Positions 3,122 to 5,151 of a DNA stretch of 64,000 nt are shown here, in pieces; within the stretch, counting starts at the first letter, position 1, and the number at the start of each line of letters is the position of its first letter. A model generated the notes under the pieces. That model worked only from the letters and a program-made list of their open reading frames with translations. It was not told where the DNA came from and ran no database searches. Position numbers and translations under genes: made by a program. Source of the stretch: Sphingomonadales bacterium 12-68-11 (GTDB lineage: Bacteria > Pseudomonadota > Alphaproteobacteria > Sphingomonadales > Sphingomonadaceae); NCBI GenBank assembly GCA_002279825.1, contig NCCV01000003.1, forward strand, positions 62,001 through 126,000, written 5' to 3'.

Positions 3122-3970
3122 TTACGCTTCGGCAGGGACCTCGGTCTCGGCGACCGCATCGTCGGCAGTGGCAGCGGCGAGCGCGGCGTCATCGGACGGG
3201 GCGGCTTCGGCGGCCGGCGCGACGAGCGCCGGTTCCTCAGGCGGCAGGTCGAGCGCGCCGACGTCGGCGCCCGAATCAACCACGCCTTCGGTCCGGCCGG
3301 TCGTCGCGGCCTGCGCGATCGCTTCACAATAGAGGCGCACGGCGCGGCTGGCGTCGTCGTTGCCGGGAATCGGGAAGGCGATGCCGTTCGGATCGACGTT
3401 GGTATCGAGAATCGCAACGACCGGGATGCCGAGCACGTTGGCTTCCTTGATCGCCAGCTCTTCCTTGTTGGCGTCGATCACGAACATCACATCGGGGATG
3501 CCGCCCATGTCGCGGATGCCGCCGAGCGACATGCGCAGCTTGTCGAGCTCGCGGGTCAGCTGGAGCACTTCCTTTTTGGTCAGCCCGGCAGTGTCGCCCG
3601 AGAGCTGCTCTTCGAGCGTCTTGAGGCGCTTGATCGACTGCGAGATGGTCTTCCAGTTGGTCAGCATTCCGCCGAGCCAGCGGTGGTTGACGAAGTACTG
3701 GCCGCAGCTGCGCGCGGCCTGGGCGATCGGCTCCTGCGCCTGGCGCTTAGTGCCGACGAACAGCACCTTGCCGCCGGAGCGGACCGTACCCGCGACGAAC
3801 TCAAGCGCGCGCGCGAACAGCGGCACGGACTGCGACAAGTCGATGATGTGAACACCGTTGCGCGCCCCGAAGATGTAGGGCTTCATCCGCGGGTTCCAGC
3901 GGTGGGTCTGGTGGCCGAAGTGCGCACCAGCCTCGATCAATTGCTGCATGGTGACAGTGGGAACCGCCAT
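3122..3970 (-). CDS. rpsB: 30S ribosomal protein S2
   Basis: S2 binds late to the 30S platform side and is required for S1 association. The 282-residue protein has the family start [20 protein letters not shown] and the [12 protein letters not shown] segment at residues 24-35. It also carries the coiled-coil region around LKTLEEQL and the [15 protein letters not shown] block. From about residue 230 it extends past the core with an Ala/Pro/Glu/Asp-rich acidic tail, which is common in alphaproteobacterial S2. The spacer upstream (3971-4325) holds its promoter on the minus strand and an unrelated promoter on the plus strand. Confidence 0.97.
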
Positions 3971-4188: not shown

Positions 4189-4217
4189 TTGACGCACCAG
4201 AACAAATCATGAACATA
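4189..4217 (+). promoter_or_regulatory. Predicted LexA-controlled promoter (SOS box) for the small ORF at 4326
   Basis: A direct repeat GAAC-AAATCAT-GAAC occupies 4200-4214. It matches the alphaproteobacterial LexA site GTTC-N7-GTTC in its reverse orientation. It sits inside the 17-bp spacer of a candidate sigma-70 promoter, with TTGACG at 4189-4194 and AACATA at 4212-4217, where a repressor would block polymerase. No other GAAC/GTTC pair with N7 spacing was noticed in the gaps of this window. The -10 match is weak, and binding is inferred, not shown. Confidence 0.55.
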
Positions 4218-4325
4218 GAGGAACACCAAGCGGACACGGCGGAACGCCCTTCGCCATCCACGTGTTTTCCACAGGCTCCCAACAGGCTTGTCCTGGACGG
4301 ATAACACAGTTCGAGGACCCATTCG

Positions 4326-4544
4326 ATGCTCGCGATGCTGATTGTGTTGCTGTTCGCCGTAACGACCGGTTTTGCCCTCGCCGTGGTCGGCGATGCCGTG
4401 CGCAAGGGCTACCGCACCTCGGTTGCGATCCAGCGCGAGCTGGCCCGCACCGAGCCGCCGGCTCCGCTGCGCCGTTCGCGTGTCAGGACTGCAACCGTGT
4501 CGCGTCGAACGGCGCAGGTGCGTCCGCTTTGCGCTGCCGCTTGA
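4326..4544 (+). CDS. Small inner-membrane protein, possibly SOS-induced
   Basis: The 72-residue product starts with one strongly hydrophobic segment (LAMLIVLLFAVTTGFALAVV, residues 2-21). An Arg-rich, presumably cytoplasmic tail follows. A good ribosome site, GAGGA at 4313-4317, is 8 bases ahead of the ATG, and the only promoter candidate upstream contains a LexA-type site. Its last 62 bases overlap the 3' end of pssA on the other strand. I do not recognise a named family. In Caulobacter the LexA-regulated small membrane protein SidA inhibits division, and this gene could be a functional analogue, but that is speculation from size, topology and the operator. Confidence 0.55.
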   Translation: MLAMLIVLLFAVTTGFALAVVGDAVRKGYRTSVAIQRELARTEPPAPLRRSRVRTATVSRRTAQVRPLCAAA

Positions 4545-5151
4545 TCCGCGCATAGCGGGTCAGCGCGTAAGGCATCAACGCCAGGTAGAGCAGGCACAGC
4601 GCCGCGAGCGTCCACCACGGTTCGGTCAGCAGCGCCGCGAACATCAGGCCCGTGAGCGCGATAGCCGGCAGCCGGATGTCGCGCCGCGGCCGAATCGACG
4701 TCCAGCTCAAAGTCGCCAGGTTCGAAATCATCAGCACTGCGATGGCAGTCATCCAGACCGCGACCAGCGCGGGATGCCGGAACACCGCCTCCCCGGTCGC
4801 AAGCCACAGGTAAAGCGGCAGGAACGCGAGGCCGGCGCCGAGCGGCGCGGGTACCCCAGTGAGGAACCCGACCGACTTGTGGGGCTGCTCGGCCATGTCG
4901 ATCTGGGCGTTGAAACGCGCGAGGCGCAGCGCGCAGCAGATCGCGAAGGCCAGGCTGGCGAACCAGCCGAACCGGGGCAGGTCCTGCAGCGACCACAGGA
5001 ACATGACCAGCGCCGGCGCCATGCCGAAACTCAGCGAATCTGCCAGGCTGTCGAGCTCGGCCCCGAACCTCGACTGCGCCTTGAGCAGCCGGGCGATGCG
5101 CCCGTCGATCCCGTCGAGCAGCCCGGCAAGCACGATCGCGAACACCGCCAT
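4483..5151 (-). CDS. pssA: CDP-diacylglycerol-serine O-phosphatidyltransferase, start codon not identifiable
   Basis: PssA makes phosphatidylserine from CDP-diacylglycerol and serine in the inner membrane, feeding Psd. The CDP-alcohol phosphotransferase motif D-G-x2-A-R-x8-G-x3-D-x3-D is complete in the segment from DGIDGRIAR to SLADS, followed by several membrane helices. The coordinates use the first in-frame ATG (5149-5151), but this cuts into the first helix. The same frame upstream encodes the family's N-terminus ([19 protein letters not shown]) back to about 5370, yet contains no ATG, GTG or TTG. The 5' end therefore appears damaged together with the psd 3' end. The 3' end overlaps the small plus-strand ORF. 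Confidence 0.85.
   Translation of the reverse strand: MAVFAIVLAGLLDGIDGRIARLLKAQSRFGAELDSLADSLSFGMAPALVMFLWSLQDLPRFGWFASLAFAICCALRLARFNAQIDMAEQPHKSVGFLTGVPAPLGAGLAFLPLYLWLATGEAVFRHPALVAVWMTAIAVLMISNLATLSWTSIRPRRDIRLPAIALTGLMFAALLTEPWWTLAALCLLYLALMPYALTRYARIKRQRKADAPAPFDATRLQS

Follow-up and report, generated by a model that had tools for sequence, protein, structure and literature searches.

On its minus strand, the window, a 64,000-nucleotide stretch of the genome of Sphingomonadales bacterium 12-68-11, carries frr, pyrH, tsf, and rpsB and, after a gap, pssA and psd. The convergent neighbor of the gap, pssA (4483..5151, minus strand), encodes a CDP-alcohol phosphatidyltransferase and was identified by Pfam (PF01066, 4.2e-21; PF08009, 7.6e-10), and the identities of frr, pyrH, tsf, rpsB, and psd were read from their translations. 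The true start codon of pssA may lie further upstream than the annotated end at 5151. The divergent neighbor, rpsB (3122..3970, minus strand), served as a synteny anchor and is present in 38 of 40 relatives and in 170 of 170 family genomes. The rpsB-pssA gap holds a -35 element, a LexA-type box, a ribosome-binding site, and a small open reading frame (ORF), all on the plus strand and oriented toward pssA.

The box, GAAC-AAATCAT-GAAC (GAACAAATCATGAAC, 4200..4214) followed by an A at 4215, is an exact match to GAAC-N7-GAAC and is conserved in relatives. It ends 111 nt before the ATG of the ORF, in agreement with the initial annotation, which had reported this motif about 110 nt ahead of the ORF. 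The box had also been placed in the spacer of a plausible promoter. This holds for the -35 side, where TTGACG is found (4189..4194), but the -10 side is weak, and the putative hexamer AACATA (4212..4217), 17 nt after the -35 element, is covered by the second half-site of the box. On the 3' side of the box lies a third GAAC (4221..4224), which may represent a second weak LexA site. The expected ribosome-binding site is present as GAGGA (4313..4317), 8 nt before the ATG. The ORF (4326..4544) runs from an ATG at 4326 to a stop at 4544 and encodes a predicted 72-residue single-span membrane protein, whose C-terminal Ala-Ala-Ala and TGA stop (4533..4544) have a degron-like appearance. Its 3' end overlaps pssA tail-to-tail and antisense by 62 nt (4483..4544).

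In the window alone, the single GAAC-N7-GAAC is not beyond chance, considering that 1.30 would be expected. Across the genome, the motif occurs 71 times, and the window box ranked first of these 71 sites when scored with a matrix trained on sites from 18 other genomes, with the own genome left out. The strongest copy of the box in this genome belongs to the small-ORF gene. The genome encodes LexA, and the motif also precedes lexA, recA, and repair genes. Boxes that are high-ranked or contain the full GAACA include those ahead of lexA, imuA, an SplB-like radical SAM gene, uvrA, uvrB, and nrdA, and the recA box is weaker than the others. The lexA box lies at 163899-163914, and the lexA domain begins at 163947. 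Among these genes, lexA and recA were confirmed by Pfam, and uvrA, uvrB, imuA, nrdA, and the SplB-like gene are names read from the translated sequence. The element at the small-ORF promoter has the form GTTC-N7-GTTC / GAAC-N7-GAAC, characteristic of the alphaproteobacterial LexA regulon, and the operator consensus of Caulobacter LexA has been described (PMC12700426). LexA of this genome very probably recognizes the motif. Based on the first rank of the window site and on the boxes ahead of lexA, recA, uvrA, uvrB, and imuA, we consider this site to be a LexA operator. Accordingly, the SOS control of the small ORF proposed in the initial annotation is strongly supported.

The promoter layout is also shared within the family. 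In most members, TTGAC lies 7-12 nt ahead of the box start, and the commonest offset is 11 nt (69 cases), as in the window. Many members also have an extra GAAC downstream, 18-50 nt from the start of the box; the distance varies and clusters around 30 nt. Three species from the same genus as the window (L005, L006, and L007) carry a second full GAAC-N7-GAAC 28 nt upstream of the main box. Two further boxes of the own genome were observed. One (L056, C9:65664-65679, GAACATAAGTGGAACA) is LexA-like; the ORF 80 nt downstream of it resembles, by eye, a DacB/PBP4-type D-Ala-D-Ala carboxypeptidase, so that the SOS response may be connected with the cell wall here. The other (L057, C2:295447-295462, GAACATTTCATGAACA) lies 34 nt ahead of an uncharacterized 115-aa ORF, another SOS candidate.

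Divergent fates of box and ORF among relatives would have spoken against the initial annotation, but the two are conserved together. We compared 144 genomes of the Sphingomonadaceae in the wide sense. GAAC-N7-GAAC was found within 600 nt upstream of rpsB in 116 of them, compared with 1.1 expected from Markov-shuffled copies (maximum 4). With any other spacer length, these regions gave 1-12 matches. The box was followed by a membrane ORF in 113 of the 144, across many genera, and in three further genomes the pair is present but the ORF starts with GTG or the box is displaced. Most of the remaining genomes do not have rpsB adjacent to pssA. In 14 of the 19 genomes where the pair was not found at rpsB, the ORF was recovered next to pssA, behind a box that matches exactly or nearly, and in one of the 19 (G163) the pair occupies a third place, on contig NCJG01000001.1 (locus L253). 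A BLAST search of the ORF in 60 relatives returned a single match besides itself. The reading of the ORF as an orphan gene, based on this one other genome of 60, was overturned by the synteny and operator search.

We also scanned named GTDB genomes for the promoter pattern TTGAC-N6-GAACAAAT-N3-GAACA, which occurs at 80 or more loci. Among the matches listed (80 loci), 54 were taken as sphingomonads by name, including Novosphingobium, Sphingomonas, Erythrobacter, Qipengyuania, Rhizorhabdus, Sphingorhabdus, and Croceibacterium, and in 52 of these 54 the ORF follows the promoter at a distance of 27-143 nt. Also among the matches listed, Bradyrhizobium, Rhizobium, and other unrelated genomes had no such ORF behind the pattern. 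Outside the family but within the order, this promoter layout is found ahead of uvrA or lexA, and the matches there were lexA, uvrA, or unrelated genes, apart from one weak candidate. At this locus (L220, genome G036, family f2), a box (GAACATAACAAGAACA) is followed after 17 nt by a single-span ORF of 60 aa that ends in YVAAE, near the 3' end of pssA, and this ORF is possibly a relative outside the family. No relative of the small ORF was found in the plasmid collection. Judging from these comparisons, the ORF with its LexA box appears to be kept in nearly every sphingomonad genome examined. The only clear absence observed, a natural loss, is in genus g108, where neither of its two genomes (L196 and L197) has a box or ORF beside rpsB or pssA. 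The pssA gene of this genus reads AAA AAA at the positions that elsewhere read AGG/AAG CGG.

The ORF also behaves as a coding sequence. Outside the pssA overlap, the pooled dN/dS was 0.30 (15 within-genus pairs), and this part of the ORF is under purifying selection. Within the overlap, the TGA stop and the last alanines are antisense to the pssA residues (I/V)(K/R)(R/Q)(Q/R). The pssA arginine at the position that sets the stop is encoded by AGG or AGA in 52 of 52 cases, compared with 4% of pssA arginine codons, a count partly forced by the presence of the stop itself, yet the stop is found at this point in 107 of 118 ORFs. The following pssA position is free of the stop condition, and here arginine is encoded by CGG in 87 of 92 cases, compared with 35% in the rest of pssA. 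Since these codon choices keep the stop and the penultimate alanine of the ORF, they provide a second, independent sign of a real protein. The Ala-Ala end is present in 104 of 118 relatives and in all 13 sphingomonad loci where pssA is not adjacent. We considered whether the Ala-Ala-Ala end only reflects its antisense position to the conserved pssA (I/V)(K/R)RQR, and this was ruled out by the AGG and CGG codon bias and by the Ala-Ala end away from pssA, in a control for which there were few pssA copies without the ORF. Selection thus appears to maintain the Ala-Ala end. Considering regulation and the reality of the protein jointly, we have high confidence, approaching certainty, that the locus encodes a true LexA-controlled protein.

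Members of the family have 70-100 residues and evolve rapidly. The 72-residue single-span protein described initially agrees with the dN/dS and with AlphaFold, which modeled the window protein as one helix over residues 2-41 (mean pLDDT 84.7) followed by a low-confidence tail. In this protein, the transmembrane segment covers approximately residues 2-24, the helix continues to residue 41, and a basic disordered tail follows. The predicted architecture is a membrane-spanning helix at the N-terminus, extended by an amphipathic stretch, ahead of a tail that is basic and disordered. In the family, the N-terminus is hydrophobic and uncharged, its first 20 residues carrying hardly any charge and positions 7-20 a mean of 0.03 charged residues, and the tail is proline-rich and basic (mean net charge +6.6). 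The positive-inside rule relates such charge distributions to membrane orientation. Because the first residues are uncharged and the tail is strongly basic, an N-out/C-in topology with a cytoplasmic tail is predicted.

As the initial annotation had stated, the sequence is not a recognizable one. No credible family match to the ORF was obtained in profile searches of Pfam, NCBIfam, PHROGs, PADLOC, and the PDB, and the same searches gave no recognizable similarity to a division inhibitor and no match to Pfam SulA (PF03846). Matches in the PDB to a designed PPR protein and stray one-member NCBIfam matches look like composition noise and were rejected. SulA (PF03846) was likewise not found in the 20 genomes searched, namely the own genome and 19 relatives. 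In the open-access literature on SOS division control in sphingomonads, we found no paper on the small-ORF gene.

We compared the small protein with known SOS-induced proteins. SulA of Escherichia coli is a soluble FtsZ inhibitor, and the likeness concerns the proposed role only, which is an SOS-induced division block removed by proteolysis. The type I toxin TisB is also an SOS-induced small membrane protein, but it is a short amphipathic pore former, whereas the small ORF encodes an uncharged transmembrane helix and a long tail. SidA of Caulobacter crescentus has only about 29 residues, and the small protein differs from it in its long basic tail with an Ala-Ala end. On the other hand, by description SidA is, like the small protein, a tiny membrane protein of an alphaproteobacterium that has a single span and is under LexA control (PMC12700426, PMC4211646). 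DidA of C. crescentus is similar in having 71 residues and a single transmembrane helix, but its induction is SOS-independent and it binds the periplasmic part of FtsN, whereas the small-ORF gene has a LexA operator (PMC4211646). SosA of Staphylococcus and YneA of Bacillus are both SOS-induced single-span division inhibitors. SosA has 77 residues, keeps one chromosomal position, evolves fast, and has a C-terminus that controls its turnover (PMC6851548), and YneA targets FtsW through its transmembrane helix (PMC13396833). However, the C-terminal parts of SosA and YneA are extracytoplasmic and sensitive to the CtpA protease, whereas the tail of the small protein is predicted to be cytoplasmic with a ClpXP-like end, and the small ORF has no LysM domain.

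We consider that the best explanation, with a probability of approximately 0.58, is a divisome inhibitor that is induced by the SOS response and comparable to SidA, SosA, and YneA, but whose topology is predicted to be reversed and whose C-terminus would carry a ClpXP-type signal for its removal. In Caulobacter, Bacillus, and Staphylococcus, septal wall synthesis is blocked, often via FtsW, by small SOS-induced proteins with a single span (PMC4211646, PMC13396833, PMC6851548). Since no SulA was detected in the sphingomonads searched, the role of an SOS division inhibitor appears vacant. A nonpolar Ala-Ala C-terminus is a signature of ClpXP substrates in Caulobacter (PMC4470285), and because a reversible checkpoint needs rapid removal of its effector, a divisome inhibitor with a built-in clearance signal is favored. 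An envelope or division role had been suggested in the initial annotation by analogy to SidA. The analogy to SidA, DidA, SosA, and YneA is good, and it is this analogy, rather than any element of the sequence, that points to such a role.

In the proposed mechanism, LexA bound to GAAC-N7-GAAC between the -35 and -10 elements of a sigma-70-type promoter would keep the gene silent, and RNA polymerase would be blocked directly because the second half-site covers the -10 element. Upon DNA damage, RecA would become active, LexA would be cleaved, and the 72-residue protein would be made and inserted via its N-terminal helix, presumably N-out/C-in. Division would then be blocked, most likely by the transmembrane helix touching the septal synthase complex FtsW/FtsI/FtsN, in the manner of SidA and YneA. 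When repair is done and LexA returns, the Ala-Ala C-terminus would let a protease, most likely ClpXP, clear the protein, and division would resume. We regard the chances as even that this is an undescribed sphingomonad SOS checkpoint in its complete form, in which a C-in divisome inhibitor has a built-in Ala-Ala degron and both the stop and the degron are kept by antisense pssA codon selection.

Other explanations were weighed against this one. A chance box with an ORF that is not a gene would agree with the count in the window and with the BLAST result, but it is effectively refuted by the comparative evidence, that is, the matrix rank, the 116 of 144 genomes against shuffled copies, the pssA codons, the dN/dS, and the listed loci with the ORF. 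It is highly improbable that the SOS transcript acts as an antisense RNA lowering pssA expression during DNA damage, with the ORF being secondary. The convergent 3' overlap with pssA does exist in nearly all genomes that keep the linkage; however, the dN/dS of about 0.3 outside the overlap, the pssA codon choices in favor of the ORF, and the conservation of the box-ORF pair away from pssA all argue against this.

Among explanations in which the protein itself acts, a membrane-active peptide of the TisB kind would lower the membrane potential and make damaged cells dormant, leaving the divisome unblocked. TisB is the precedent for an SOS-induced peptide of this type, and the small size, LexA control, and hydrophobic N-terminus would fit, but we consider it quite unlikely in view of the nearly uncharged transmembrane segment, the approximately 60 residues of tail behind it, and the purifying selection on the ORF outside the pssA overlap. 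Also unlikely, if slightly less so, is a regulator or chaperone of the envelope that is induced by the SOS response, acts for example on the synthesis of lipids or the cell wall, and does not target the divisome directly. The gene usually lies beside pssA, and HigX of Caulobacter is an SOS-induced membrane protein acting on envelope genes (PMC13384398), but the pssA linkage is dispensable, since the 13 loci without adjacent pssA keep the box as well as the ORF and its end. Several points also weigh against a divisome inhibitor. SidA has nothing comparable to the long basic tail, which is predicted to be cytoplasmic, SosA and YneA act with an extracytoplasmic C-terminus, and the ORF has no recognizable similarity to division inhibitors. 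SOS-induced membrane proteins with other roles exist, such as the depolarizing toxin TisB and the envelope regulator HigX. In addition, part of the conserved end is antisense to a conserved pssA motif, which was controlled for with few ORF-less pssA copies.

In summary, SOS-induced single-span inhibitors are known as a kind, and the small-ORF family is not described in the open-access literature that we found. Judged from sequence, its length would set the family apart from SidA, and its predicted topology and terminal signal would distinguish it from SosA and YneA. For the stop of division after DNA damage in sphingomonads, neither SulA, in the genomes searched, nor a counterpart, in the open-access literature found, was identified. 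For almost all genomes of a large environmental family, our study names one candidate gene together with its operator and the two ends of its ORF, and by analogy its small protein is probably a brake on division during DNA repair. Such inhibitors evolve too fast for BLAST, as the one other genome among 60 illustrates, whereas the combination of operator and synteny finds them almost everywhere. This route may reveal missing SOS inhibitors in other phyla.
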